64,000 nt of DNA, taken from NCBI GenBank assembly GCA_028877215.1, contig JAPPFJ010000009.1, positions 43,093 through 107,092 of the forward strand, in the 5' to 3' direction. The position numbers and the translations under genes were made by a program. The notes beneath the pieces are model-generated. The model had not been told where the DNA came from. It saw nothing but the letters and a program-made list of their open reading frames with translations, and searched no databases. Numbering within the stretch: position 1 is the stretch's first letter; each line of letters opens with the position of its first letter. Positions 15,518 to 59,754 of this stretch are shown here, piece by piece. This stretch comes from Gemmatimonadota bacterium. GTDB taxonomy: Bacteria > Latescibacterota > UBA2968 > GCA-2709665.

Positions 15518-16861
15518 TCAGAACCGGAGGGTGAATACGGTTCCTTCATCGGGCGTGGATTGAACGCTGATGGCGCCGCGATGCTGGCGCATGATCTGCC
15601 GGCAAAGCGATAGCCCAATGCCCGATCCCTCCTGTCTGGTCGTGAAGAAGGGGATGAAGATGCGGTCCTGCACCTCGTCGAGGATGCCAGGGCCGTTATC
15701 CTGTACGCGGATGAGAACGCGCCCCCTTCGGTCCAGGGCCGCGTTAAGGTCGATACGTGGCTGATCTCGCCCGGCCAGGGCTTCCGCCGCGTTCCTCACG
15801 AGATTGATGAGCGCCTGCTCCACGAGGTTGGGGTCGGCGGTGACTTCCAGAGTCTCGGGTTCGACCCCCGTGCGCAGGGCGATGCCTGCCGATTCGCACT
15901 CTGGATTCATGAGGGACGCAACGCGGTCGAAGAGTCCGGCGACGGGACAGATCTGGAAGTCGGGCCGGGGTATCCGCGTGAGCTGGCGGTAGGTGTCCAC
16001 GAACTGCTGCAGGCCTTCGCTCCGCGACTGTATGGTCTTGAGCGCGGCGCTCACGTCTGCCGCGGTCTGCTGATCCAGAGGGGACTGGCGACCGGATTCG
16101 GGAAAGTGGCCGCGTACCGTCGAGGCCAGAGATGAAATGGGCGTGATCGAATTCATGATTTCGTGGATGAGCACCCGAATGAGTTTCTGCCACGCCTCCA
16201 TTTCCTGCTCTTCCAGCTCGCTCTGGATGTCCTGTACCGACGCCAGGATGAACGATTCGCCGCGCATGCGAATCTCGGTGGCGTGGATGATGATCTGAAG
16301 GAGTTCGTCCTCGTCCTGGACCTTGACCAGGGTCCTGTCGCCCGGTCCCAGCGCGAGAAGCGTTTCGGAAAGGGTCTCGCTCACCGGCTCGAGCTCCCGC
16401 ACGTTGTGGATGTGGGGTCGCCGAAGCAGGCGCTGGGCAGCGGTGTTCATCAGCTCGATGCGTCCGTCTGATCCGTAACACACCAGTCCCACGCCCACGT
16501 GCTGGACCACGGTCTGCAGGTATTGGAAGTTCTCCTCTTTTTCCGCGCGCGTCCTCCGGAAGGCGTTCAGCACCTCGTTGAACGCCTCTTTCAGGTCGTC
16601 GAAAGCGGACCCGAGTCCGCGGCCGCTGAAAGACTGGGAGAAGTCTTCGTACCGGATGGCCTGAAGGAACCGCGTCAGATCCCGGTTGGTGCGTTCCACG
16701 TAGTGGATGAGGGCATAGGCCTGGTAGAGCGTGATGCCGGCCAGGATGAGGACGGTGGTATAGTAGCTCGTCTCGAAGAGGACGTACACAAGGGCGCAGA
16801 TCGTGGCGCACAGAAAGGCCACCCGCACGATGCAGAGCGTTCGGAAGTGTCTATAGACCAT
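15518..16861 (-). CDS. Sensor histidine kinase, NtrY/AtoS-like membrane kinase
   Basis: N-terminal TM pair, PAS-like region, H-box LIHEIMNSITPI, N box NLVRNAAEAL, G boxes DNGPGI and GSGIGLSL; start at 16861 or 16888. Confidence 0.88.
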   Translation of the reverse strand: MVYRHFRTLCIVRVAFLCATICALVYVLFETSYYTTVLILAGITLYQAYALIHYVERTNRDLTRFLQAIRYEDFSQSFSGRGLGSAFDDLKEAFNEVLNAFRRTRAEKEENFQYLQTVVQHVGVGLVCYGSDGRIELMNTAAQRLLRRPHIHNVRELEPVSETLSETLLALGPGDRTLVKVQDEDELLQIIIHATEIRMRGESFILASVQDIQSELEEQEMEAWQKLIRVLIHEIMNSITPISSLASTVRGHFPESGRQSPLDQQTAADVSAALKTIQSRSEGLQQFVDTYRQLTRIPRPDFQICPVAGLFDRVASLMNPECESAGIALRTGVEPETLEVTADPNLVEQALINLVRNAAEALAGRDQPRIDLNAALDRRGRVLIRVQDNGPGILDEVQDRIFIPFFTTRQEGSGIGLSLCRQIMRQHRGAISVQSTPDEGTVFTLRF

Positions 16862-18227
16862 ATTTTTCCAGCCTGCGGTAGAGTGCACTGCGCGTGATGC
16901 CCAGTTCCCGGGCCGTGTGGCTGATGTTGCCCTCGTGCTTCTCGATGGCTTTGCGGATCGCGGTCTTCTCGATGCGTTCGAGGTTGAAGTCTTCGCAGTG
17001 AATGTGGTCGCCCGGGGCGGTTTCCGGCGTGCTGAGCGGAAAGTCCGACGGCTGCAGCGTTCCGTTTTCGTTCATGATCACCGCACGTTCGATGGCGTGC
17101 TGCAGTTCGCGGACGTTTCCGGGCCAGGGATACCCCTTGAGTTTTTCCAGCGTGCGGGGATGCAGGCCGATGCGTGGTTTCTTGTATTTTCTGCAGTACC
17201 TGTCCAGGAAGCTGCCGATGAGAAGCGGCATGTCTTCGCGGCGTTCCCTGAGCGGTGGCAGACTGATTTCAACCGTGTTGACGCGATAGAGCAGGTCCTG
17301 GCGGAACTCGTTCCGCGCGGCCAGTTCGTGGATGGGCGTATTGGTGGCGCAGACGAGCCGGATATCGATGGGGACGGGCTTGTTGGTGCCCAGGCGAAAA
17401 ACCGTCCGCTTCTCAAGGACGGTGAGCAGCTTTGCCTGAAGCGGCAGTGAGAGGTTGCCGATCTCATCCAGGAACAGCGTCCCGCCCGAAGCCGTTTCAA
17501 ACCGCCCCGCGCGGTCTTCCCTGGCGTCTGTAAAGGCGCCTTTTTTGTGCCCGAAAAGCTCGCTCTCGAAGAGGGTTTCGGGTACGGCGCCGAGGTCGAC
17601 GTGGATGAAGACCTGATCCGTGCGGCCGGAATGGCGGTGGAGGGCGCGGGCGACCGCGTCTTTGCCCGTCCCGTTGTCACCCAGGACAAGCACGTTGGCG
17701 TCGGTGGCGGCGACCTTCCGGATGGTCTCGAAAACGTTGCGCATTACAGGAGAGACCGCCACGATTCCGGGAAACTGCCTGTCCAGATCGGCGTGGAGCT
17801 GCCGCTGGCGGGAGCGCAGCCGGAAGACGTCGAGCCGCGAACGGCGGAGCTTGGCTGCCGAGGACAGCGTGGCCAGCAGTTTCTCGTTCTGCCAGGGCTT
17901 GAGGACAAAGTCCGTGGCGCCTTCCCGTATGGCCTTCACGGCCGTGTTGACGTCGCCGAACGCCGTGATCAGGACCACCACGGCGGACGGATCCAGCTCC
18001 AGGATCCTGCCGAGCCAGTGAAATCCTTCCCTGCCCGAGGTGGCGTCCTGGGCGAAATTCATATCCAGAAGGATCACGTCATACGCGTCGTTCTGCATCA
18101 GTTCGGGAATGCGCTCGGGATCGGCTTCGGTATCCACCCGCCCGGCGTGCTGCTTGAGAAAAAGCTGCGCGGCCAGCAGCACGTCGCGGTCGTCGTCGAC
18201 AATGAGGATTTTGTCAAATGTGTTCAT
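16851..18227 (-). CDS. Sigma-54-dependent response regulator, NtrC family
   Basis: Receiver domain [22 protein letters not shown]+ Walker [24 protein letters not shown] (GAFTGA loop variant), C-terminal Fis-type HTH. Confidence 0.93.
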
Positions 18228-18333: not shown

Positions 18334-18349
18334 CGCATTTTTCGTGCCA
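18334..18349 (-). promoter_or_regulatory. Putative sigma-54 promoter facing the two-component genes
   Basis: Minus strand TGGCACG-AAAA-ATGCG; 88 bp from the shared operator at 18438. Confidence 0.5.
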
Positions 18350-18437
18350 ATACGCCTCCTGGATCGAATTCACACACAACCATAATGATCACAGAGACTT
18401 AGCCTGTCAAGCGGTTCGAGGACCGGCGCCGCCCATG

Positions 18438-18474
18438 TGTCCATTTTCGCACACTGCTGTATCATTATCGAACA
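18438..18474 (+). promoter_or_regulatory. Composite operator/UAS copy 1
   Basis: TGTCCATTTTCGCACA-CTGC-TGTATCATTATCGAACA. Confidence 0.75.
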
Positions 18475-18537
18475 CCCAGAGGTTGGCGTTTCCATCGACG
18501 CAGCGCTAAATGCCTGTAAAATCGGGCGAAATCCACA

Positions 18538-18553
18538 TGGCACGCCCGTTGCT
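18538..18553 (+). promoter_or_regulatory. Sigma-54 promoter for permease 1
   Basis: TGGCACG-CCCG-TTGCT, exact -24/-12 consensus, 63 bp after the operator. Confidence 0.82.
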
Positions 18554-18644: not shown

Positions 18645-18880
18645 ATCCCATGCCGCAGTAGATCCTTCGTCGGCCTGGGCTTCTCTGCACGACAATCTCG
18701 TCTCATGTGAATGAAACAGATGTGTTCCTTGGACGTTGCGCCCCGGCCTCCTCTGGATGACAGCGGGAAATAACGGGCCTGCCTATCGTCCATCATGTCA
18801 TTCAGAGCGTAGCGAAGAATCTCCCGTCTTCTCGCTCGTACGTGCAGCATATGGCCTATGTAGACGGATTTGTGCGCGGA
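18645..18880. repeat. Interspersed composite repeat (ATCCTTCG / CGAAGAATCT family), copy 1
   Basis: GCAGTAGATCCTTCGTCGGCC...CCTCCTCTGGATGACAG...TGTCATTCAGAGCGTAGCGAAGAATCTCCCGTCT. Confidence 0.7.
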
Positions 18881-18919: not shown

Positions 18920-21490
18920 ATGTTCTGGAATTATCTCAAGGTGGCCTGGAGAAACCTTTTGCGGCACCCGCTCTACGCTACGATCAACGTGGTGGGTCTG
19001 GGCATCGCAATATCGTTTTGCCTGCTGGCGTTCCTGTTTGTGCGATACGAGTGGACCTACGATGGGTTTCACGAAAACGCCAATCGGATTTACCGGATCT
19101 ACGCGGAATTTGAGAGCCGCAGAACTTCAGACAATACACCACGGGAATTGGGGCCCGCGTTGTCGGAAACGCTGCCGGACGTCCGTTCCGTGAGGATACA
19201 TACCGGGATGCGCATTGTTCACGATCGAGGCCAGACCACGAAGGTAAACATCCTTCAGGCAGATCCATCCATTCTGGACGTCTTCTCCTTTCCTCTGATC
19301 AAGGGAGACCCTGCCAACGCACTGGTGGCTCCGAACCATGTGGTCATTACCGAAACCATGGCTGCGACATATTTCCCAGGACAGGATCCGATCGGAAAGT
19401 CGATTTCCGTTCAGGATGTCGAGCCATTTGTATTGAACTTTGGGGGCGGAGGATCAGATAAAGGTGACACTCAACGGGCTGGTCAAAAAGAAGGTCCTGC
19501 CGGCGCACAGCCGGCCCCGGCGCTCACGGATCATCCCGGCGAAGTATCCGGGGCAAGGATTTTATCCTTCTCGATAAGTCCACCATCTCCTGACACGAGG
19601 CAGGAAGAGCAGGATAAACGTCCAATGCAGGAATTGACGGTAACCGGTGTGATCAGGGACATTCCCAGGAACTCCACCCTTCGCTTTGACTTTCTCTCCG
19701 CCTTAAGTCCTGCGGCTCAGAAACGGGAATGGAATACCGTGAACACCTTCGTCTTGCTGCCCGAATATCTGAGTCCCCTGGAGATGGAACGCCGGCTTGA
19801 CGGCCTTTCCATACCGTGGCCGAGGAGCCGGCAGCCGGAAAAGCTGAAGTTGCAGGCGCTACGAGACATATACTTTGATTCGGGAGGCATACATACCCAA
19901 GTTGGCAGCACCAGCAGAATCAGCCGTCCAGGAAATCCCGACCATTCGTATATCCTGGCGGGCATTGCGATGCTCGTACTGGTTGTGGCCGCAGTCAATT
20001 ATACGAACCTCTCAGTGGGCCGTTCGTTCTCCCGTGCCCGGGAAGTTGGAATGCGCAAGGTTGCAGGAGGTCTGCGTACGCAACTTGCCAGGCAGTTTCT
20101 GGCGGAATCGGTCTTGCTGACACTGATCGCGCTTGCGCTCGGGCTGGCGCTCGCCGAGTTGTTCCTGCCGGGTTTCAACAGCCTGATCAGCAGGAAATTC
20201 TCCCTTTCCGATCTGGCGGATACCAATTCACTCGCATATCTACTCGTCATGGCGCTGATCGTGGGGGTTTTCGCCGGGGGTTACCCGGCATTGTTCATGT
20301 CAGGATTCTTTCCGGTCGATGCGTTGAAAGGGCGGTTCAAGGCGGATCGAATGGGGTACTTCAGCCGGGCGCTCGTGGTATTCCAGCTGGCCATCTCCAC
20401 GGCGCTGGTGACCTGCATGACCATAGCATCCATACAAATGGACAAACTGAAATCGAAACCGCTTGGATTCGAGCCCAGCCATGTCGTCGTCGTTCGCCTA
20501 TTTGGGATATTGGATAGAATGAACCTTGCCAAAGCCTTTGAGGAGGCCGTCCGGCCGTACCACTCCGTCTTGAACACGACGAGAACAGGACACGGTTTCA
20601 GCAGTTTAATGCGGAGTAGTTCCAACATCAGTTGGAAGGGGACGACACTTGAAGGTGTTGAAAATATATCTTGCGATACACGCTTCCTCGAGACAATGGA
20701 TATTAGGCTACTGGACGGGCGGAATTTCGAACGGGAAGGCGATGCGGAGACGTCGGTCATTGTGAACGAAACGCTCGCCAGGACACTTGGATTGGACGCG
20801 CCTCTGGGCGAGTCGATTCGGCTTGGCAGGAAGGACATGCAGGTTATCGGCGTCGTCAGGGATTTTCATTTCCGGTCCCTTCACCACGCCATTGGGCCTG
20901 CGGTGCTGAATTTGCAGGCGACCTCGTCGACCGCCAGGTTTCTGCCGGATTTCCGGGTCCTGCTGATGATTCGGATTCGCCCGGAGAACGTCTTCGACAC
21001 GCTTGATTTCCTGAGAGAGAAGTGGGATGAAACCGTACCGGATGTTCCGTTTGACCATAACTTCCTGGATGAGGAAATAGACCGTCAATACCGGGAGGAA
21101 GAGAGGTGGTTCAAAATTGCGGGTTACGCGACCTTCTTCGCGGTATTCATCGCCTGCATGGGCGCTTTCGGCTTGACGTCGCTCACCGTGGCCAGGCGGA
21201 CCAAGGAAATCGGGATCCGGAAAGTCGTAGGCGCGCCGACAACACGAATCGTCTCTCTGCTGGCCAGGGAATACGTGGTCCTCGTCGGCATCGCCAGCCT
21301 GATTGCATGGCCGGCCACCTACGTTACGGCGGAGCGCTGGTTGCGAGACTTCGCGTATCGCGTGGATCCGGGGCTCGGTACGTTTCTGCTGGGAGGCCTG
21401 CTCATGCTTCTCATGGTGCTCCTGGCGGTGAGCCTGCAGGTCACCCGGGCAGCCCGGGCGAATCCCGTGGACGCTCTGCGGTATGAGTGA
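18920..21490 (+). CDS. MacB/FtsX-type ABC transporter permease 1
   Basis: MFWNYLKVAWRNLLRHPLYATINVVGLGIAISFCLLAFLFVRYEWTYD; two PCD-FtsX units; C-terminus ANPVDALRYE; no Walker motifs. Confidence 0.93.
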   Translation: MFWNYLKVAWRNLLRHPLYATINVVGLGIAISFCLLAFLFVRYEWTYDGFHENANRIYRIYAEFESRRTSDNTPRELGPALSETLPDVRSVRIHTGMRIVHDRGQTTKVNILQADPSILDVFSFPLIKGDPANALVAPNHVVITETMAATYFPGQDPIGKSISVQDVEPFVLNFGGGGSDKGDTQRAGQKEGPAGAQPAPALTDHPGEVSGARILSFSISPPSPDTRQEEQDKRPMQELTVTGVIRDIPRNSTLRFDFLSALSPAAQKREWNTVNTFVLLPEYLSPLEMERRLDGLSIPWPRSRQPEKLKLQALRDIYFDSGGIHTQVGSTSRISRPGNPDHSYILAGIAMLVLVVAAVNYTNLSVGRSFSRAREVGMRKVAGGLRTQLARQFLAESVLLTLIALALGLALAELFLPGFNSLISRKFSLSDLADTNSLAYLLVMALIVGVFAGGYPALFMSGFFPVDALKGRFKADRMGYFSRALVVFQLAISTALVTCMTIASIQMDKLKSKPLGFEPSHVVVVRLFGILDRMNLAKAFEEAVRPYHSVLNTTRTGHGFSSLMRSSSNISWKGTTLEGVENISCDTRFLETMDIRLLDGRNFEREGDAETSVIVNETLARTLGLDAPLGESIRLGRKDMQVIGVVRDFHFRSLHHAIGPAVLNLQATSSTARFLPDFRVLLMIRIRPENVFDTLDFLREKWDETVPDVPFDHNFLDEEIDRQYREEERWFKIAGYATFFAVFIACMGAFGLTSLTVARRTKEIGIRKVVGAPTTRIVSLLAREYVVLVGIASLIAWPATYVTAERWLRDFAYRVDPGLGTFLLGGLLMLLMVLLAVSLQVTRAARANPVDALRYE

Positions 21491-43372: not shown

Positions 43373-43409
43373 TGTTCATTTTCGGACAATTGTGTATCAT
43401 TATCGAACG
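43373..43409 (+). promoter_or_regulatory. Composite operator/UAS copy 2
   Basis: TGTTCATTTTCGGACA-ATTG-TGTATCATTATCGAACG. Confidence 0.8.
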
Positions 43410-43473
43410 CTTGTCGGGCAGTTCCATCGGACAAGCATCACATATATAATTGTTATTTAATAAGTTGTATTCA

Positions 43474-43489
43474 TGGCACGATGATCGCA
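43474..43489 (+). promoter_or_regulatory. Sigma-54 promoter for permease 7
   Basis: TGGCACG-ATGA-TCGCA, 64 bp after the operator. Confidence 0.78.
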
Positions 43490-43571: not shown

Positions 43572-46040
43572 ATGCTCTGGAATTATCTGATCGTAGCATA
43601 CCGGAATCTGGTGCGTCACAAGGCCTATACTGCGATCAACACTATTGGCCTCGCGATCGGCATTGCGTTCTGCGTGTTGACGTATCTGTATGTGCATCAC
43701 GAGTGGACCTACGATGCGTTTCACAAACATGCCGACCGGATTTATCGCGTGAATATTGAACTCTCCGGACCGGACCGGAAGGGCTATTCCCTGCCTAATG
43801 TTCCGACTGCATTGCGCGATGAACTGCTCCGAACGGTTACTGGCGTGGAGATGGCCGCGCGGCTGACAGCGGCGCGAGGCAGCGACCGCGAAGACCGGGA
43901 GATTCAGGTGACGTACGGAGACCAGGTCCTTAAGTTGCCGTTTTTGATCGTGGATCCCGCGTTTCTGAGCATGTTCTCGTTTCCGCTTCGTGCCGGCGAA
44001 CCGGAGGTTGCCCTGAAGAATCCGAACTCTGTCGTGTTGAGCGCGGAAACGGCAACGAGGATTTTCGGAGATGAAAATCCGGTTGGAAAACAGTTGAGCC
44101 TGCGATCCATCTGGAGCCACGAGAGCGCAGATTTCACGGTAACCGGCGTTGCCGAGCCCGTGCCCGACAATTCATCCATTCAGTTTGAGGTGTTGCTCCC
44201 GTATCAGCATCTCTGGTTCTTTTTACACCTGGAGCCCAATGGCTGGAAGCGGATTTCCCGGTGCGGCACCTACGTTCAACTCAGTGACAATACTGAAGCC
44301 AAAGATATAGAACTGGCGTTGCGTTCGATTGTAAGAGCCAACATGCTGCGATCGGAAATTTCTGAGGACAGCCTGCATTTGCGGTTGCAACCGCTGACAG
44401 ATTTGCGCCATCGAATGGATCTGATGGAAATCAGAAATCATGGCGTGAAGCCGCCGCGGGATCCGTTGACCGGGTATGGACTGATCTGCCTTTCGGTGCT
44501 GGTTCTGGTGATGGCGTCGATCAATTATGTCAATCTTGCGGTCGGTCGCATGGTCACCCGAACAAAGGAAGTCGGCGTTCGCAAAGTGATGGGCGCTTTG
44601 CGCTCGCAGCTGTTTTGGCAATACTTATGCGAGTCGGTCCTGATGAGTATACTGGCCGTGGGCCTGGGACTGGTATTTGCCGAGCATGCGCTACCGTTCT
44701 TCAATGGATTCACGCACCAGAGCCTTTCCTTCGACCCTGTTTTCAGCCGGTCCGCATTTGTCTTTCTGGTCATTCTAACTTTGGGCATCGGAATCCTTAT
44801 CTGCAGCTACCCTGCGCTTGTCCTCTCAGGGGCGCATCCGGTTCACATACTCAGTGGGCGGTTCCGGCCGAGCCATCGCAATCTGATTGGTCGCGCGCTC
44901 GTTCTGGGACAGTTTGCCGTATCGAGTGTTTTGACTGTCTGTACCTTGATTATGGTCTATCAACTGCGATTTTTAAGGGAAAAAGACCTCGGCTTCAACA
45001 AGGAATTCGTGATCTCAATCAATGTAGGCGGCCTTCCCGAGAGGCCCGGGGGGCGAGGTATCCTCAAGAATCGTTATTTGCAAAATCACAAGGTGATTGG
45101 ATGCACGACGGTGAGGTACACACTGTTGGAGGAAGGTCCGGCGGACACCGAAGAAGCGAGAGGCGGGCAAGGACAATCGTTGAAGATAAGACCCTACTTC
45201 GTGGATCACGATTTCGTAAGGACGTTCGAGATGAAGGTGTTGTCGGGACGGGATTTTGACTCAGGCACGAATGACCTGGCGCAGGGTAGCGGCCTTGCAA
45301 ACGAAGAACTGGTCAAGCAGATGGGGTGGGACGAACCAATCGGGCAGACCCTGACGTTAGAAGGCAGCGCAGCGCGTTTAATGCGAAGCTCAAAAGGGGT
45401 TGTTCGGGTCATCGGCGTGGTGAAGGACTTTCATTTAAGGCCGCTTCAACGGAGCGTCCAACCTTCGATGCTCTTGCTGAATCCATATATCGGCCTTGAA
45501 GCAGAGAGCTTCTTTGTACGTGTCGGACCAGGTGACGTTGACGAGACGTTGAAATATCTGGAAGCAGAGTGGAAGTCGATCGCGCCGCCCGGTGAGCCGT
45601 TCTACTTTACGTTTCTTGATGACGATATCGAGAACTATTACCAGGACTTCGTGAGTTGGAGCAGGATTGTTGGTTATGCGACGGTTTTCGCCGTTTTTAT
45701 CGCGTGTCTGGGTGCATTCGGATTAACGGCATTGGCCGTAGCGAGGCGAACCAAGGAAATAGGCATTCGAAAGACGATGGGCGCCTCCGTCTTGAATGTC
45801 GTGTCGCTGTTGTCGCGCGAATTTGCGATGCCGGTGTTGATCGCGAATCTTTGCGCCTGGCCCCTGGCGTACCTGGCGATGGACAGGTGGCTGCAGAATT
45901 TCGCGTATCGCATCGAAATGACAGCCGGCGTATTCCTGCTGGGCGGGTTGCTGACGCTGCTGGTGGTAATCGGTACCGTGAGCATACAGACCACGACGGC
46001 GGCCAGGGCGAACCCGGTTGAGTCACTGCGTTACGAATAG
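43572..46040 (+). CDS. MacB/FtsX-type ABC transporter permease 7
   Basis: MLWNYLIVAYRNLVRHKAYTAINTIGLAIGIAFCVLTYLYVHHEWTYD; FGLTALAVARRTKEIGIRKTMGAS; ANPVESLRYE. Confidence 0.93.
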   Translation: MLWNYLIVAYRNLVRHKAYTAINTIGLAIGIAFCVLTYLYVHHEWTYDAFHKHADRIYRVNIELSGPDRKGYSLPNVPTALRDELLRTVTGVEMAARLTAARGSDREDREIQVTYGDQVLKLPFLIVDPAFLSMFSFPLRAGEPEVALKNPNSVVLSAETATRIFGDENPVGKQLSLRSIWSHESADFTVTGVAEPVPDNSSIQFEVLLPYQHLWFFLHLEPNGWKRISRCGTYVQLSDNTEAKDIELALRSIVRANMLRSEISEDSLHLRLQPLTDLRHRMDLMEIRNHGVKPPRDPLTGYGLICLSVLVLVMASINYVNLAVGRMVTRTKEVGVRKVMGALRSQLFWQYLCESVLMSILAVGLGLVFAEHALPFFNGFTHQSLSFDPVFSRSAFVFLVILTLGIGILICSYPALVLSGAHPVHILSGRFRPSHRNLIGRALVLGQFAVSSVLTVCTLIMVYQLRFLREKDLGFNKEFVISINVGGLPERPGGRGILKNRYLQNHKVIGCTTVRYTLLEEGPADTEEARGGQGQSLKIRPYFVDHDFVRTFEMKVLSGRDFDSGTNDLAQGSGLANEELVKQMGWDEPIGQTLTLEGSAARLMRSSKGVVRVIGVVKDFHLRPLQRSVQPSMLLLNPYIGLEAESFFVRVGPGDVDETLKYLEAEWKSIAPPGEPFYFTFLDDDIENYYQDFVSWSRIVGYATVFAVFIACLGAFGLTALAVARRTKEIGIRKTMGASVLNVVSLLSREFAMPVLIANLCAWPLAYLAMDRWLQNFAYRIEMTAGVFLLGGLLTLLVVIGTVSIQTTTAARANPVESLRYE

Positions 46041-47312: not shown

Positions 47313-49664
47313 ATGCTCCGAAATTACCTGATCGTTGCGTATCGCAATATCATGCGCCACAAGGTGTACTCACTGATCAACGTGGCAGGCCTCTCGATCG
47401 GAATCGCATTCTGCATTCTGACGTTCCTGTACGTCCGGAACGAGTGGACGTACGATACGTTCCACGAGAACGCGGAGCGGATCTACCGGGTTTATTTCTA
47501 TGATCATTCGGGCGCGAGCAGCATGACGCCGGACCCGCTGGGGCCGGCGCTGGGAGAGGCGTTTCCGGACGTTCAGGCCGTCAGGTTCGGTTTTGGCGCA
47601 CGCTCTGCAAAGTATCAGGATCGGACCATCCGTGCTAAAATTAGGTTCGCCGATCCGGCGATTCTGGATGTGTTCACCTTTCCGCTGCTGCAAGGAGACC
47701 CGGCGACGGTACTGGAGGATCCATCCTCGCTCGTCGTCACCGAAGCGGCGGCGCGAAAATACTTCGGTGACGAAGATCCTCTCGGCAAAGTCCTTTCACT
47801 GAATCTTTGGGGGCCGCCGGCTGTGGTCCGGGATTTCGTTGTGACTGGGGTCGCGAAGACCATTCCCAAGAATTCCAGCATTCAGTTCGATTTTCTGGCT
47901 ACGTTTGCAAGTAGAGGCGAGCCAAAGAATTGGAATATCAGTGACGTAGCAACGTACGCATTGCTCTCGGAAAATGAAGTATATCCGGAACTCAGCGAAC
48001 GGTTTTCGGAACTGGTGCGGAACTTGATCCCGCCATGGAGGGGAGAGCGGTGGGACGGATCGATCGGCTTACTGCCATTGCTGGAGATGCATCTCAACCG
48101 GGATAAAGGGAGACCCACTGGAAGAGGAGATCCGGCATTTTCATATATTCTTCTCGGTATCGCTCTTCTCGTCCTGACGATCGCATGTGTGAACTTTGTT
48201 ACGTTTGCCGTGGGCCGGTCATTCTCCCGCGACCGGGAGGTGGCGATGCGAAAGGTGACGGGCGCCTCCCGGATACAACTGTTGATCCAGTTTCTTGGAG
48301 AATCGATGGTATTGTGCGCTGTTGCACTGCTAGCCGGATTGGGCCTTGCGGAACTCCTCCTGCCGGCTTTCGAAAGTGTTGTGGTCAAGGATCTGACCCT
48401 GCGCGATCAGGCGGACGGTGCAGGGATCGCCTTTCTGGTCGGACTGGCTGTGGCCGTCGGATTGGCCGCGGGCGGTTACCCGGCCTTGGTGCTGTCAAAC
48501 GTACAGCCCGCCGCAGCACTAAAGGGTCGTATCAGGTTGGTAGGGTCAAACCGTCTGGGGCGGGTTCTGGTGGTATTGCAATTCACCCTGTCGGTGTTCC
48601 TGGTCGCAAGCGCGCTGACGATGGTTAAGCAACTCGAGTATTTGAAGAAAAAGCCGCTGGGCTTCAATAACGAGCATGTCTTGCGCATTCAAGCGTGGTA
48701 TAACCTGAAGAGAGATGCCGGCTTGGTCGACGTGTATCGGAACGAGTTGATACGGCACCATGCGATCATTGGGATAACGACCACGACGCAAGCACTAAGC
48801 AACAGGACGAGGTATAGTAGCAGCGTAGAGTATCTGGGGGAAGAGTTGAACGTCGAAGTGGTCGATGTCGGAAATGATTTCCTTAAGACGATGGGAATGT
48901 CCCTGGTGGAAGGATCGGACTTCAATCCGCAAAACACCGAACCGGCATCCTCCATTATCCTGAATGAGACCCTTGTCCGGCGACTGGGATGGGAGACGCC
49001 GGTCGTGGGAAGAACGCTGCGAATGGAAGAACGGGATTTTAAGGTGATTGGGGTTGTCCAGGACTTCCACGTTCGATCTCTCCACCACAGTATCCCGCCC
49101 GCCGTAATGAGGTTCGATGAGACAGGAAGAGGGGCGTTGCTGATCAGGATGCGTTCTGAAAACGTCCCGGGTACGCTGGCATATTTGGAGGCGAAGTGGC
49201 GGGAAATCGCGCCCGAACAGCCCCTACAGTATTCTTTCCTAGGCAATGAGGTGGACGGGCAATACAAGAAAGAAGAACGCTGGAGTCGGGTCCTTCGGAA
49301 TTCAGCCCTGTTCGCCGTCCTGATCGCCTGCCTCGGTGCGTTCGGCCTCACCGCCCTTGCTGTTGCGCGCCGGACCCGGGAGATTGGGATCCGGAAGGTC
49401 CTGGGCGCTCGTGGTTCCGGGATTGTCGCACTTTTATCCTGGGATTTCGTAAAGCTTGTGGTCATCGCGAGTCTCATTGCGTTCCCCGCGGCGTACTATG
49501 CGACGGAGCGATGGTTGCAGGATTTCGCGTACCGGATCGACCCGGATATTTTCACCTTTGCATTGGGCGGGGCATTCTTGCTGCTGGCCGTGCTGCTGAC
49601 CGTGAGCGTTCAGGCCATCCGGGCGGCGTGGGCGAATCCCGTGGATGCGCTGCGTACGGAGTGA
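47313..49664 (+). CDS. MacB/FtsX-type ABC transporter permease 8
   Basis: MLRNYLIVAYRNIMRHKVYSLINVAGLSIGIAFCILTFLYVRNEWTYD; ANPVDALRTE. Confidence 0.93.
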   Translation: MLRNYLIVAYRNIMRHKVYSLINVAGLSIGIAFCILTFLYVRNEWTYDTFHENAERIYRVYFYDHSGASSMTPDPLGPALGEAFPDVQAVRFGFGARSAKYQDRTIRAKIRFADPAILDVFTFPLLQGDPATVLEDPSSLVVTEAAARKYFGDEDPLGKVLSLNLWGPPAVVRDFVVTGVAKTIPKNSSIQFDFLATFASRGEPKNWNISDVATYALLSENEVYPELSERFSELVRNLIPPWRGERWDGSIGLLPLLEMHLNRDKGRPTGRGDPAFSYILLGIALLVLTIACVNFVTFAVGRSFSRDREVAMRKVTGASRIQLLIQFLGESMVLCAVALLAGLGLAELLLPAFESVVVKDLTLRDQADGAGIAFLVGLAVAVGLAAGGYPALVLSNVQPAAALKGRIRLVGSNRLGRVLVVLQFTLSVFLVASALTMVKQLEYLKKKPLGFNNEHVLRIQAWYNLKRDAGLVDVYRNELIRHHAIIGITTTTQALSNRTRYSSSVEYLGEELNVEVVDVGNDFLKTMGMSLVEGSDFNPQNTEPASSIILNETLVRRLGWETPVVGRTLRMEERDFKVIGVVQDFHVRSLHHSIPPAVMRFDETGRGALLIRMRSENVPGTLAYLEAKWREIAPEQPLQYSFLGNEVDGQYKKEERWSRVLRNSALFAVLIACLGAFGLTALAVARRTREIGIRKVLGARGSGIVALLSWDFVKLVVIASLIAFPAAYYATERWLQDFAYRIDPDIFTFALGGAFLLLAVLLTVSVQAIRAAWANPVDALRTE

Positions 49665-49691
49665 GAATTGCTCTGTCGGTAATGTCGACAC

Positions 49692-49728
49692 TGTTTGTTT
49701 TCGAACATCAGTGTCTCAATAGCGAACA
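49692..49728 (+). promoter_or_regulatory. Composite operator/UAS copy 3
   Basis: TGTTTGTTTTCGAACA-TCAG-TGTCTCAATAGCGAACA. Confidence 0.75.
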
Positions 49729-49792
49729 CTTATTTGTCGATCGTTCGAGAGGATTGGCGATAAACAGTTGAAAATGATATGGAAATGAAATT

Positions 49793-49808
49793 TGGCACGG
49801 ATGTCGCT
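49793..49808 (+). promoter_or_regulatory. Sigma-54 promoter upstream of sigma-factor remnant / permease 9
   Basis: TGGCACG-GATG-TCGCT, 64 bp after the operator. Confidence 0.75.
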
Positions 49809-49878
49809 TATTTTAGATATGAGGTTGGTAGGATCCGTAAGTTCGATACAAGACGGAGTGAATGCAATTTTCGATGAC

Positions 49879-50006
49879 ATGAAATGTGAATGCAGAACCT
49901 TGCCCGTTGCGCCTGAGTCCGACGCGGCGGTGATCGATCGGGCGCTTGCAGACGACTGATTCATCTGAAGACGGTGAACGGATCGATACGGCTGAAGGAG
50001 CGATAG
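49879..50006 (+). pseudogene. Deletion scar: ECF-sigma 5' remnant fused to DUF4097 3' remnant
   Basis: MKCECRTLPVAPESDAAVIDRALADD* (cf. KTLHVAPESDTAVIDRAIAGDD at 53.1 kb), overlapping LIHLKTVNGSIRLKER* (same peptide as the end of the 46317-47141 CDS). Confidence 0.82.
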
Positions 50007-50503: not shown

Positions 50504-52843
50504 ATGCTCCGAAACTACCTGATCGTTGCGTATCGCAATCTCCTGCGGCACAAGGTCAACTCCCTGATCAACGTGGCGGGCCTTTCGATCGGGATCGCAT
50601 TCTGCATTCTGACGTTCCTGTACGTCCGCCACGAATGGACGTACGATGCATTCCATGAGAATGCAGGCCGGATTTACAGGGCCTGCCTCGTTGACCGTAC
50701 GGGTGCGAGTGGGGCGACGCCCGACGCGTTTGGGCCGGCGCTGGAAGAGGCGTTTCCGGACGTTCGAGCCGTGAGGGTGGGCTGGGGCGCTTCCTCTGTG
50801 AAGTACCGGGACCGGGCCATTATTGGAATATTCAGATTTGTCGATCCGGCGATTCTGGATGTGTTTACCTTTCCTCTCCTCCGTGGAGACCCGGCAACGG
50901 CAATGGAAGATCCCTACTCTCTCATTGTCACCGAAGCGGCATCTCGGAAGTACTTCGGCGACGAAGACCCGATCGGTAAAGTCCTTTCTGTGGAGATGTG
51001 GGGGCGACCGCCAGTGGTCCGGGACTTCGTTATCACCGGGATTGCGAAATCCATACCCAAGAATTCCAGCATTCGGTTTGATTTTCTGGCGCCGATGGCG
51101 GATAGAGGCAAGACGCGTAGCTGGTCAATGAGCTCTACCCAGACATTTGTATTGCTTTCAGAAAACAAACGTCCGGCGGATGTCGAAGATCGATCTACAA
51201 AGTTACTCAGGGCAAACCGGGGAGAGCGGTGGAACGAGTCAATCACCTTGCAGCCACTGCTGGAGATGCATCTCAATCGGGGTAAACGCGGACCCGATGG
51301 AGCAGGAAACCCGGCGTTATCTTATATTCTGCTCGGTATCGCTCTCCTCGTCCTCACGATTGCCTGTGTGAACTTCATTACCCTCGCTGTGGGCCGATCT
51401 TACTACCGCGACCGGGAGGTGGCGATGCGGAAGGTGGCGGGTGCGTCCCGGAACCAGTTGAGGATGCAGTTTCTTGGAGAATCGACACTACTATGCCTTT
51501 TCGCGCTCATTGCCGGCGTTGGTTTAACGGAGCTTCTCCTGCCGGCTTTCAATAGCATTGCTGTCACCGACCTTGCCTTGGGCGATCAAGTCGACGGTGC
51601 GGGTCTGGCCTTTCTGGTTGCAGTCATCGTAATCGTCGGACTGACCGCGGGCGGCTACCCTGCCTTCGTGCTGTCAGGGGTCCCGCCTGCTGCGGCATTG
51701 AAAGGCCGCATGCGGCTTGGTGGGTCGAACCGATTCGGGCGTGCGCTCGTGGTATTGCAATTCGTTCTGTCCGTGTCCCTCGTAGTCACGGCGCTGCTGA
51801 TGGTCAGGCAGTTTGATTTCCTGAGGTCGAAACACCTGGGGTTTGACAGTGAACATCTTGTGCGCATCGATGCATTTGATACGCTGCAGCCGGGTACGGG
51901 ACTGACCGAGGTTTACCGGAACGAGTTGTCAGGACACCATATGATTCTGGGCGTAACGGCCACCAGTCACACTCTGAGCAACAGGACGAGACTCCATGGT
52001 ATTGTCGAACATGAAGGAAAAGAGATCGATGTAGAACACATCGAAGTCGGCCATGATTTTCTGGAGACCATGGGCGTATCGCTCCTGGAAGGCGCCGATT
52101 TCGATCCACGTAAGCCGGGTTCATCGAGATTCGTTATTATCAACGAGTCCCTGGTCCATCGTCTGGGATGGGAAGGTCCGATCCAAGGCAGGACGCTGCG
52201 GGGAAACAACCGAAACTTTACTGTTATCGGAGTGGTACAGGACTTTCATTTTCGGTCTTTGCATCACAAAATCGGGCCTATGGTGTTGACTTTCTTTCCG
52301 CGCCACACCTATCAGATGCTTGTCAGGATCCGTCCTGAGAACGTACCCGGTACACTGGCCTTCCTCAAGGACAAGTGGCGGAAGGTAGCGCCGGGCCGCG
52401 AGTTTCGCTATTTCTTTCTAGACGATGAACTGGACCGGCAGTACTGGAGGGAGGAGCGGTTGAGCCGCATTCTTGGATATGCTACGCTGCTGGCGATCTT
52501 CATCGCCTGCCTCGGCGCGTTCGGACTCACCGCCCTTGCAGTCGCCAGGCGTACCCGAGAGATCGGGATCCGGAAGGTCCTGGGCGCCCATGCGTCCGGG
52601 ATTGTCGCACTGTTATCCACGGATTTCGTAAAGCTTGTGGTCATTGCGAGTGTCATTGCTTTCCCCGCTGCGTACTATGCGACGGAGCGATGGCTGCAGG
52701 ATTTCGCGTATCGTATAGACCCGGATATTCCATCCTTTGTGTTGGGCGGGGTGTTATTGCTGCTGGCCGTGCTGCTGACCGTGAGTGTTCAGGCCATCCG
52801 GGCGGCGTGGGCGAATCCGGTGGACGCGCTGCGTACGGAGTGA
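50504..52843 (+). CDS. MacB/FtsX-type ABC transporter permease 9
   Basis: MLRNYLIVAYRNLLRHKVNSLINVAGLSIGIAFCILTFLYVRHEWTYD; ANPVDALRTE; closest to permease 8. Confidence 0.93.
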   Translation: MLRNYLIVAYRNLLRHKVNSLINVAGLSIGIAFCILTFLYVRHEWTYDAFHENAGRIYRACLVDRTGASGATPDAFGPALEEAFPDVRAVRVGWGASSVKYRDRAIIGIFRFVDPAILDVFTFPLLRGDPATAMEDPYSLIVTEAASRKYFGDEDPIGKVLSVEMWGRPPVVRDFVITGIAKSIPKNSSIRFDFLAPMADRGKTRSWSMSSTQTFVLLSENKRPADVEDRSTKLLRANRGERWNESITLQPLLEMHLNRGKRGPDGAGNPALSYILLGIALLVLTIACVNFITLAVGRSYYRDREVAMRKVAGASRNQLRMQFLGESTLLCLFALIAGVGLTELLLPAFNSIAVTDLALGDQVDGAGLAFLVAVIVIVGLTAGGYPAFVLSGVPPAAALKGRMRLGGSNRFGRALVVLQFVLSVSLVVTALLMVRQFDFLRSKHLGFDSEHLVRIDAFDTLQPGTGLTEVYRNELSGHHMILGVTATSHTLSNRTRLHGIVEHEGKEIDVEHIEVGHDFLETMGVSLLEGADFDPRKPGSSRFVIINESLVHRLGWEGPIQGRTLRGNNRNFTVIGVVQDFHFRSLHHKIGPMVLTFFPRHTYQMLVRIRPENVPGTLAFLKDKWRKVAPGREFRYFFLDDELDRQYWREERLSRILGYATLLAIFIACLGAFGLTALAVARRTREIGIRKVLGAHASGIVALLSTDFVKLVVIASVIAFPAAYYATERWLQDFAYRIDPDIPSFVLGGVLLLLAVLLTVSVQAIRAAWANPVDALRTE

Positions 52844-52870
52844 ATGTTGCTCTGTTGGCAACGTCAATAC

Positions 52871-52907
52871 TGTCCGTTTTCGGACATCAGTGTCTCATAA
52901 ACGAACA
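52871..52907 (+). promoter_or_regulatory. Composite operator/UAS copy 4
   Basis: TGTCCGTTTTCGGACA (TGTCC-N6-GGACA exact palindrome)-TCAG-TGTCTCATAAACGAACA. Confidence 0.82.
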
Positions 52908-52971
52908 CTTATTTGTCTCTCTTTCGCGAGTACTAACGATAAACCGTTGATAATTATATAGAAATGATTGT

Positions 52972-52987
52972 TGGCACGGTTGTCGCT
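52972..52987 (+). promoter_or_regulatory. Sigma-54 promoter for ECF sigma factor / adaptor
   Basis: TGGCACG-GTTG-TCGCT, 64 bp after the operator. Confidence 0.78.
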
Positions 52988-53048
52988 TCATACAGTCAAT
53001 AGGTCGGCAATATCCATACGTACGACAAGAAATGGAGCAAGATCCCTT

Positions 53049-53669
53049 GTGATCAAAAAGAAAGCCGAGTTTAAGACCTTGCACGTCGCGCCTGAATCCG
53101 ACACGGCGGTGATCGATCGGGCGATTGCCGGTGACGATTTGGCTTTTCAGGTCCTTTTCAGGCGCCACCGAGACCGTGTGCGTGCGCTCGTGCACCGATG
53201 CGCGAGGAATGCCGATGAGGCCGAGGACCTGGTCCAAATGGTCTTCATCAAGGCGTTTCTGGGGCTGGCCGGATTTCGCGGACAGGCCGCATTCACCACG
53301 TGGCTTACGCGCATCGCTATGAATGAGTGTACGAATTACCTGCGGTCATTGAAAAAGCGGAAGATCTGGTTGAACGAAGTTGAGGATGCCGTGCCCGCGC
53401 TCCAGGCGCGTTGGCTGCCGGCGCCCGACCAGGATCCCGAAACGGCGTTGGTCCGGAAGGAACGCAGGGAAATCGTGGCGCGGAGCATCCGGGCGCTGCC
53501 GGAACGCCACCGGGAAGCGGTGTGTCTCCATTATCTCATGGAACGGTCCTACGATGAAATCGTCGAGCAGCTGCAGGTACCGGCGGGAACGCTGAAAGTC
53601 TGGTTGTACCGGGGGCGCCACGGGTTGAAGCGGGAGGTCGAACGGCTGGGGATAACAGGGAGTTTATAG
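53049..53669 (+). CDS. ECF-type RNA polymerase sigma factor
   Basis: DLAFQVLFRRHRDRVRALVHRCARNADEAEDLVQMVFIKAFLGL (sigma2), LPERHREAVCLHYLMERSYDEIVEQLQVPAGTLKVWLYRGRHGLKRE (sigma4); GTG 53049 chosen because the ORF-track start (52968) lies on the promoter. Confidence 0.9.
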   Translation: MIKKKAEFKTLHVAPESDTAVIDRAIAGDDLAFQVLFRRHRDRVRALVHRCARNADEAEDLVQMVFIKAFLGLAGFRGQAAFTTWLTRIAMNECTNYLRSLKKRKIWLNEVEDAVPALQARWLPAPDQDPETALVRKERREIVARSIRALPERHREAVCLHYLMERSYDEIVEQLQVPAGTLKVWLYRGRHGLKREVERLGITGSL

Positions 53670-53730
53670 GAGTGGCCTGAAATCTGGAAAAGCTGAAGCC
53701 GGCGTTTCAACGGGATGTTAAGGCAAGACG

Positions 53731-55173
53731 ATGGAAGAGAAAAAACCAAAGAAGGAAAAGGGACGCGTGTTGCGGCTGAATCGATCAGACGCGTCCTCCG
53801 ATCAGCAGGCTTCCGGTCGTGAGGCGTCTCAAGGACCGGCTGACTCGGTTGGCGGAGACAAACCGGTCCCCGGTTTCGTGAATCCGGGTATTTCCGCGTC
53901 TGAGCGCGAAATACCAACCGGGGGCATGGACCGAAAGATCGAGAAGAAGCTGTTGACGCCGAAGCGCATTATCAGCGTCGTGGCGGTCGTGGGCTTTGTG
54001 GGGCTGGTGCTATATATGGCCATATTCGGCGACCACAGCGCCAGGCTCAACGTGCAGGCCGAGCGAATCACGATATCCGATGTCACCATCGGTCCCTTCC
54101 AGGAGTTCATCCCCCAGCGCGGCACGGTGATGCCCATTCAGACGCACTACCTGGATGCGCTGGAAGGCGGTCAGGTCGAGGAGATTTACCTGGAAGAGGG
54201 TGCGATGGTCGAACAGGGCACGCAGATACTCCGCATGTCGAATCCGACCCTGGAACAGACCGTGTTGAGCCAGGAAGCGCAGCTGTTCGAGCAGATCAAC
54301 AGGATGGAAAACACCCGGCTGAACCAGGAAATCCAGGATATCCAGCGCAAGCGATCGTTGATGGACATCGAACTGGACCTACAGAAATCGGAACGCGATT
54401 TCCGGAAGGAGAAAGCCCTGTTCGAGAACGATTTCTCCTCGCAAGACGCGTTTAACGGGGCAAAGGAAAAGTACGAACACGCTCAGAAGCTCAAGGTGTT
54501 CATGGTGGAGACCATTCGCCGCGACTCCATGTATCGCGTCAACGAACTGGCTGCTCTGCAGAAGCGCGCACGCAGCCTGCAGCTTCAACTGGATGACGTG
54601 CGGCGTCCACTGAGAAACCTGGTCGTTCGCGCGCCGATCGCCGGCCAATTGTCACAGCTCAACGCCGAGATCGGCAAGTTGATAGCGAAGGGGACCAGCA
54701 TCGGCCAGGTCGACGTTCTGGACGCGTACAAGATGCGCGCGGCCATCGATGAATTCTACATTACGAGAATTACAGCAGGACTCCGGGGGACGATTGAAAT
54801 CGACGACGAGACTTTCGAATTGAGAATCCGCCGGGTCTTCCCCGAGGTGAAGGAGGGGCAGTTCGAGGTCGATATGGATTTCGTGGGCGAAGCGCCTCGA
54901 AGCATCCGCCGCGGACAGACGGAGCAGATTCGACTGGAACTGGACGCGCCCGAAGAAGCGCTGCTGTTACCGCGGGGCGGATTCTATCAGACCACCGGCG
55001 GCAACTGGGTCTTCGTGGTCGAGGGTGACATGGCCGTTCGGCGCAAGGTCCGTATCGGACGCCAGAACCCCGAGTATTTCGAAGTGCTCGAGGGCCTTTC
55101 GCCCGGAGAGCGCGTCGTGACCTCGTCGTATGAGAATTATGAAGAGATTGATAAGCTGGTTCTACAGAGGTGA
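53731..55173 (+). CDS. HlyD/MacA-type periplasmic adaptor (membrane fusion protein)
   Basis: TM at RIISVVAVVGFVGLVLYMAIF; coiled-coil hairpin; LVVRAPIAGQLSQLNAEIGKLIAKG lipoyl motif; start may be 53926 (MDRKIEKK). Confidence 0.9.
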   Translation: MEEKKPKKEKGRVLRLNRSDASSDQQASGREASQGPADSVGGDKPVPGFVNPGISASEREIPTGGMDRKIEKKLLTPKRIISVVAVVGFVGLVLYMAIFGDHSARLNVQAERITISDVTIGPFQEFIPQRGTVMPIQTHYLDALEGGQVEEIYLEEGAMVEQGTQILRMSNPTLEQTVLSQEAQLFEQINRMENTRLNQEIQDIQRKRSLMDIELDLQKSERDFRKEKALFENDFSSQDAFNGAKEKYEHAQKLKVFMVETIRRDSMYRVNELAALQKRARSLQLQLDDVRRPLRNLVVRAPIAGQLSQLNAEIGKLIAKGTSIGQVDVLDAYKMRAAIDEFYITRITAGLRGTIEIDDETFELRIRRVFPEVKEGQFEVDMDFVGEAPRSIRRGQTEQIRLELDAPEEALLLPRGGFYQTTGGNWVFVVEGDMAVRRKVRIGRQNPEYFEVLEGLSPGERVVTSSYENYEEIDKLVLQR

Positions 55174-59064: not shown

Positions 59065-59754
59065 ATGATCAAGACCGTGGATTTACAGAAGGTGTACAGG
59101 ACAGAAGAAGTCGAAACAACCGCGTTGCGAAACGTCAACCTGGAGATCAATGAAGGCGAGTTCGTGGCGGTGATGGGGCCATCGGGCTGCGGCAAGTCCA
59201 CGCTGCTGAACGTCCTGGGGCTGCTGGACAATCCGACGGACGGAGAATACTTTTTGAACGACGTGGAGGTCTCCGGACATTCGGAGCGGCAGAGAGCCGA
59301 TACCCGGAAAGAGAATATCGGCTTCGTGTTTCAGAGTTTCAATCTGATCGACGAACTGACCGTGGCCGAAAATATCGAACTGCCGCTCCTGTACCTGAAG
59401 ATGCCGTCCAAAGAACGCAGGAAGCGCGTGGACGAATCCATGGAGTATATGGGCATCAAGCACCGCGAGAAGCACTTCCCGCAACAGCTGTCAGGCGGCC
59501 AGCAGCAGCGCGTGGCCGTGGCGCGGGCGGTGATCTCGAATCCGAAGATCATTCTCGCGGACGAGCCTACCGGGAACCTGGATTCCGCCAACGGCAATGA
59601 AGTTATGGGATTGTTGACGGAACTGAACAAGAACGGGACGACCATCGTCATGGTGACGCACAAAGCGCACGATGCCGGATTCGCACATCGCGTCGTTCAC
59701 CTGTTCGACGGCCACGTGGTGTCGGAAAACATCAAGGAACAAGCGCCGAATTAG
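59065..59754 (+). CDS. ABC transporter ATP-binding protein (MacB/LolD type)
   Basis: GPSGCGKST, LSGGQQQRVAVARAV, DEPTGNLD; ATG 59065 with AAGGAG upstream; ORF-track start is too far upstream. Confidence 0.95.
   Translation: MIKTVDLQKVYRTEEVETTALRNVNLEINEGEFVAVMGPSGCGKSTLLNVLGLLDNPTDGEYFLNDVEVSGHSERQRADTRKENIGFVFQSFNLIDELTVAENIELPLLYLKMPSKERRKRVDESMEYMGIKHREKHFPQQLSGGQQQRVAVARAVISNPKIILADEPTGNLDSANGNEVMGLLTELNKNGTTIVMVTHKAHDAGFAHRVVHLFDGHVVSENIKEQAPN

Follow-up and report, generated by a model that had tools for sequence, protein, structure and literature searches.

An export cluster of the uncultured Latescibacterota very probably contains an operon that is switched on through sigma-54 by a two-component system and that carries the gene of an ECF sigma factor. 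Our reading of this cluster, to which we give a probability of roughly 0.78, is that of a two-component/sigma-54 export regulon in which the amount of the ECF would be set by transcription, the gene of a periplasmic adaptor would be co-transcribed with it, and the ECF would serve a further set of genes. The window, by which we mean the whole 64-kb stretch of DNA that was analysed (G000:C22:43093-107092, from a genome of 5.35 Mb), holds about a dozen arrayed MacB/ADOP-like permeases, a DUF4097 protein, an HlyD-type adaptor, an ABC ATPase and a pair of genes for a kinase and a sigma-54 regulator. The ATPase of the export system was placed at 59065-59754 (+) with its start set by homology, the longest reading frame running from 58789, and the permease upstream of the ECF module, recognized with Pfam as MacB/ADOP-like, occupies 50504-52843 (+).

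On the forward strand the order of elements is operator, second operator site, sigma-54 site, ECF gene and HlyD-type adaptor gene, with an anti-sigma gene being absent. The primary operator (52871-52886, +), located by sequence search, is a perfect dyad, TGTCCG-TTTT-CGGACA (TGTCCGTTTTCGGACA), and has no second exact copy anywhere in the 5.35-Mb genome. An imperfect second site, TGTCTCATAAACGAACA (52891-52907, +), lies 4 bp behind the first and begins about 21 bp, or two helical turns, downstream of its start; this position is kept in nearly all of 43 modules, over which the consensus of the second site is TGTATCAWWATCGRACACTT. The sigma-54 promoter, TGGCACGGTTGTCGC (52972-52986, +), was recognized as a match to the -24/-12 motif (TGGCACG-N4-TCGC) and would start transcription near 52998. 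Its -24 element is perfect and its -12 element has one mismatch (TCGC for TTGC). The exact 15-mer is retained in four other genomes (G001-G004), and the occurrence of TCGC instead of TTGC throughout the genus counts against our model. A stretch between operator and promoter (TAA-ACCG-TTGATA; 52940-52952, +) resembles the IHF consensus and is a putative binding site. A related block, ATAAC/ATAAAC..TTGNAAA, is present in many of the modules.

The ECF gene (53049-53669, +) encodes 206 amino acids from a GTG start with a GGAG (53034-53037) 11 nt upstream. Its product matches Sigma70_r2 (6.9e-18) and Sigma70_r4_2 (1.6e-11) in Pfam and has sigma regions 2 and 4 only, as is characteristic of ECF (group 4) factors. 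The nearest relatives in the PDB are E. coli RpoE in first place and also SigW and SigH, such that the closest models are RpoE/SigW-like. A TTG at 52968 was rejected as the start codon. The GTG at 53049 is preferred because the frame from 52968 overlaps the promoter and, in an alignment with the congener G003, runs into a TAA after about ten codons; across four congeners this region is conserved as a promoter and not as a protein. The original prediction had favoured this GTG over a start that would sit on the promoter, a choice upheld by the G003 stop codon and the GGAG. Values of dN/dS for the ECF gene between congeners (0.21-0.34) indicate purifying selection.

Two components of the module were uninformative when taken singly. 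The palindrome with up to two mismatches occurs five times in the window against 4.55 expected, and this count, being equal to chance, was discarded as evidence. Genome-wide matches to the sigma-54 motif alone numbered 139 versus 133 in the reversed control and say nothing without the operator. The combination TTTTCG(S/R)ACA-N80-92-TGGCACG was found at 18444, 43379, 49698 and 52877 in the window and never in 100 shuffles, with distances from operator start to TGGCAC of 100, 101, about 97-101 and 101 bp, respectively. We therefore do not regard the module as a product of chance, because operator and sigma-54 site recur as a pair at near-fixed spacing that shuffled sequences do not yield. Motif searches placed the first of these modules between the regulator gene and the first permease, with a shared operator, TGTCCATTTTCGCACA (18438-18453, +), and a perfect sigma-54 site, TGGCACGCCCGTTGC (18538-18552, +), ahead of the permease at 18920, and the second, consisting of operator TGTTCATTTTCGGACA and sigma-54 site TGGCACGATGATCGC (43373-43488, +), ahead of the permease at 43572. 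The third (49692-49957, +; TGTTTGTTTTCGAACA, with a sigma-54 site at 49793) is a duplicated module, behind which the first ECF codons recur in broken form. A tandem duplication relates 47313-49957 to 50504-53150 (73% identity over 2667 bp); the duplicated unit takes in the permease, the operator and promoter, and the beginning of the ECF gene. Of the ECF gene, the upstream copy has only the broken start, followed by a stretch resembling the end of the DUF4097 gene.

Searching 21 genomes of the order Latescibacterota with TTTTCGGACA-N80-92-TGGCAC gave at least 57 matches in 15 genomes among the matches listed, while the reversed pattern gave none and a gap of 110-122 gave three. Two of the 57 listed matches, which are near-identical and located in G004, do not look like modules. 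Spacing was 100-102 bp in 42 of the 43 distinct modules compared, and potential activator sites hence lie upstream at a conserved distance, as is typical of an activator-controlled sigma-54 promoter. Where downstream genes were read, nearly all were permeases or ECFs. Another contig of the same genome (L086, G000:C18) carries an operator/sigma-54-like module at 9460-9343 (-) with 103-bp spacing and a -12 element of TTGA; the gene behind it encodes an unlinked MacB-like permease.

Conservation of this arrangement extends over two families. Three genomes of the same genus (G001, G002 and G003) and one of the same family (G004) retain the operator, a sigma-54 site at 101-102 bp, the ECF (69-80% identity) and the adaptor, confirming in the window and in these relatives the predicted order of operator and sigma-54 promoter ahead of the ECF gene and then the adaptor; in G004 the ECF, adaptor, ATPase and permease are tightly packed. 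Within the second family, G007 has an operator, a sigma-54 site (112 bp), ECF, adaptor, ATPase and permease, and in G016 a regulator (73% identical to that of the window) and kinase diverge from doubled operators that precede a sigma-54 site with two mismatches, an ECF and an adaptor. The module is followed by an ECF in G014 and by at least one permease and then an ECF, mostly overlapping the permease stop codon, in G006, G009, G010, G012, G013 and G017; no module was detected in the G008 operon under the rules used, a result that speaks against our model. Seven genomes have an adaptor downstream of the ECF. In the tree all 15 ECFs group in a single clade (support 98/93), apart from paralogues whose genes occupy another locus, next to a different kinase/sigma-54 regulator pair. 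That the arrangement persists in two families of the order strongly supports the predicted control of the ECF gene by sigma-54.

A second ECF clade is found order-wide; its locus also encodes a Band_7 protein and one more kinase/sigma-54 regulator pair, with PspA-like genes noted nearby by eye (L081, G000:C28:158001-178000; equivalents L079, L080, L082, L083, L085, L261 and L262), and thus couples ECF and sigma-54 systems once more. At L078 (G021:C40), a related ECF (47%) has pentapeptide-repeat and SHOCT-like/DUF4097-like genes as neighbours, and genes for an ATPase, an adaptor and a permease are close by.

The ECF gene of the window is not followed by any anti-sigma gene, the adaptor coming next, 61 nt on, and the absence of a zinc-finger anti-sigma reading frame noted in the original prediction was borne out. 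A partner encoded elsewhere with conserved linkage, named there as a finding that would speak against the idea, did not come to light either: none of the 15 ECF loci from two families has a linked anti-sigma gene, the neighbours being permeases and the adaptor. The locus hence differs from a canonical ECF/anti-sigma pair, and the lack of a linked partner is strongly supported by its conservation in both families. We infer that the ECF would be active without any anti-sigma factor. The genome encodes five zf-HC2 proteins, none on this contig; one turned up directly behind another ECF, so the search was able to find such genes. It seems unlikely that the ECF is of the conventional kind, with basal synthesis and an anti-sigma factor, distant in the genome or of unrecognized type, that keeps it in check, the sigma-54 promoter serving only as a booster. 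E. coli RpoE, SigW and SigH, the nearest solved relatives, are under the control of anti-sigma partners or other proteins, and the five zf-HC2 proteins could be candidates for such a role; the zf-HC2 genes are, however, on other contigs, one of them right behind a different ECF, and linkage is missing from all 15 loci.

The adaptor (53731-55173, +) is an HlyD/RND-type periplasmic protein (Pfam HlyD_3; DarC-like in NCBIfam, below the cut-off) with an N-terminal cytosolic tail of 65 amino acids. The gap between ECF and adaptor genes is 61 nt here and 3 nt in G004, and is replaced by an overlap of a few bases in G003; neither a terminator nor a sigma-70 promoter was found on the forward strand from the sigma-54 promoter to the adaptor. 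The simplest reading is that ECF and adaptor share one transcript, which would start at the sigma-54 promoter. The original claim that the ECF controls the adaptor found no support, given these short gaps and the failure to find an ECF-type promoter in the cluster. Likewise, the proposed search for -35/-10 ECF motifs ahead of other permeases yielded no motif shared by the regions before the adaptor, ATPase or permeases. Matches to the sigma-E consensus, which is that of E. coli, numbered 54 in the cluster versus 57 in reversed sequence, and upstream alignments of MFS and ATPase genes from the second family contained no conserved promoter. Exact two-block motifs common to cluster genes were rejected as ECF targets, having come only from a dispersed repeat. 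A dispersed repeat, TGTCATTCAGAGCGNAGCGAAGAATCTCCC, is intergenic, stands before several genes of the cluster and occurs near 18800 and 38100. Genes outside this cluster may be the targets of the ECF; alternatively, it could act back on the sigma-54 promoter in the manner of HrpL.

This lack of targets in motif searches of the cluster would also fit an ECF that is a passenger of permease-array duplications with little or no regulatory role, such that only the sigma-54 layer matters. The locus does duplicate (73% over 2667 bp), leaving a broken ECF copy at 49692-49957, and the related exporters of other phyla lack an ECF. Retention of a single clade in two families and the dN/dS values of 0.21-0.34 nevertheless argue for a function, and we regard a passenger as very unlikely. 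That the ECF drives the adaptor from a promoter of its own in the gap between them, as first envisaged, is scarcely credible, for although seven genomes have the adaptor behind the ECF, the gap is at most 61 nt in the genus, shrinks to 3 nt or an overlap in relatives and contains no conserved promoter motif, and in the other family the adaptor is sometimes many genes downstream of the ECF. The adaptor tail (53731-53925) occurs only in Latescibacterota, is in frame, shows selection with a dN/dS of 0.21-0.50 and carries a short motif, K(K)xVPxF(V/L), conserved in most genomes. One could imagine that the adaptor replaces an anti-sigma factor: its tail would tether the ECF encoded with it to the exporter, and sigma activity would then be governed by the assembly of the pump or the flow of substrate. 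We consider this a long shot: the connection between tail and ECF is one of co-occurrence, and G004 has an ECF beside an adaptor without the VPxF motif.

Candidates for the activator are encoded in the window. A sensor histidine kinase (15518-16888, -; HATPase_c) overlaps, on the same strand, the gene of a sigma-54 response regulator (16851-18227, -) with a receiver domain, an AAA+ Sigma54_activat domain and a Fis-type helix-turn-helix (HTH_8). The genome contains a single rpoN (one Sigma54_DBD) alongside AAA+ activators. Full-length sigma-54 activators number about a dozen in this genome, so we infer the pairing of regulator and operator; the window regulator is the likely activator of the modules. 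A sigma-54-like site, TGGCACGAAAAATGC (18335-18349, -), precedes the regulator gene at 104 bp from the shared operator and is conserved in G002. The region 18335-18552 thus has one operator between two divergent sigma-54-like sites, an arrangement likewise conserved in G002, and since this operator would serve both sites the regulator may activate its own gene.

A scan for adaptor relatives gave 349, of which 80 were kept, 75 of them from outside Latescibacterota. In these 75 loci the adaptor is commonly beside an orthologous regulator-kinase pair and ahead of an ATPase and permeases, and most have a regulator orthologue at about 51-69% identity. In 48 of the 75, the palindrome (up to two mismatches) stands no more than 450 bp ahead of the adaptor (permuted dyads: mean 1.1, largest 8), and in 19 a sigma-54 site accompanies it (mean 0.05, largest 2). 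An ECF between promoter and adaptor does not form part of this arrangement. The link between regulator and operator is probably older than the ECF, and the latter looks as if Latescibacterota had added it to a pre-existing sigma-54 export regulon, because other phyla keep the regulator, palindrome and adaptor without it.

We propose that the kinase (15518-16888) and response regulator (16851-18227) would together drive the export regulon. The phosphorylated regulator would bind tandem operators of the form TGTYCR-N4-CGRACA, some 100 bp ahead of -24/-12 promoters, and, with DNA bending probably aided by an IHF-like protein, would activate RNA polymerase-sigma-54 at several MacB-like permease operons, at the ECF-adaptor operon and probably at the regulator's own gene. 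The ECF would be made only while the signal is on, with its activity set by transcription, following an HrpL-type logic, and not by an anti-sigma factor, and would presumably direct RNA polymerase to a further gene set.

Control of ECFs by transcription alone is known, the model case being HrpL (ECF32) of the Pseudomonas syringae type III secretion system, which is driven by sigma-54, HrpRS and IHF (PMC8999054, PMC5263251). The original prediction considered two sigma layers on one export locus unusual; they are indeed uncommon, but HrpL provides a precedent. As judged from sequence, our system is like HrpRS-HrpL in its sigma-54 promoter, enhancer-binding activator, IHF-like site, ECF without an anti-sigma factor and link to export, and the HrpL trait of a sigma-54 promoter before an ECF gene without an anti-sigma gene is evident here from both sequence and conservation. 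It differs in its activator, a response regulator that has a receiver domain and a kinase partner, and in its ECF, which is RpoE/SigW-like by its nearest models. In addition, the exporter is ABC/MacB-like with the ECF predicted to share a transcript with export genes, and no hrp-box-like target was found in our searches. Control of ECF transcription by a two-component system recalls CseBC and SigE (ECF39) of Streptomyces coelicolor (PMC8999054), whereas our response regulator is of the sigma-54 type and the locus and phylum are unrelated. The adaptor, ATPase and permease resemble DarC, DarD and ADOP/MacB models of the DarBCD (darobactin export) and MacAB systems, but NCBIfam scores for DarC (172.9 of 450 bits) and DarD (269 of 375 bits) fall below the cut-offs and do not place the proteins in DarBCD. 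A 2025 survey reported, as a new regulatory link, statistical enrichment of sigma-54 promoters before FtsX/MacB-like antimicrobial-peptide permeases (COG0577) (PMC12316311); 'ECF' does not occur in its main text, and the operator, the likely activator and the ECF are added here. Our literature search found no paper linking Latescibacter- with 'ECF sigma'. Thus the sigma-54/permease link and the sigma-54/ECF wiring were each known separately; the novelty, as far as our search reaches, lies in their combination and in the clade and the operator. Situated about 90-112 bp ahead of a sigma-54 promoter, the operator TGTYCR-N4-CGRACA appears to tie one regulator family to adaptor/ATPase/permease operons in several phyla and makes the regulon predictable from sequence. 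Finally, to judge from its conservation across this order, control of an ECF by sigma-54 without an anti-sigma factor is probably not peculiar to HrpL and the secretion systems of plant pathogens, and would have arisen separately on an ABC export regulon.
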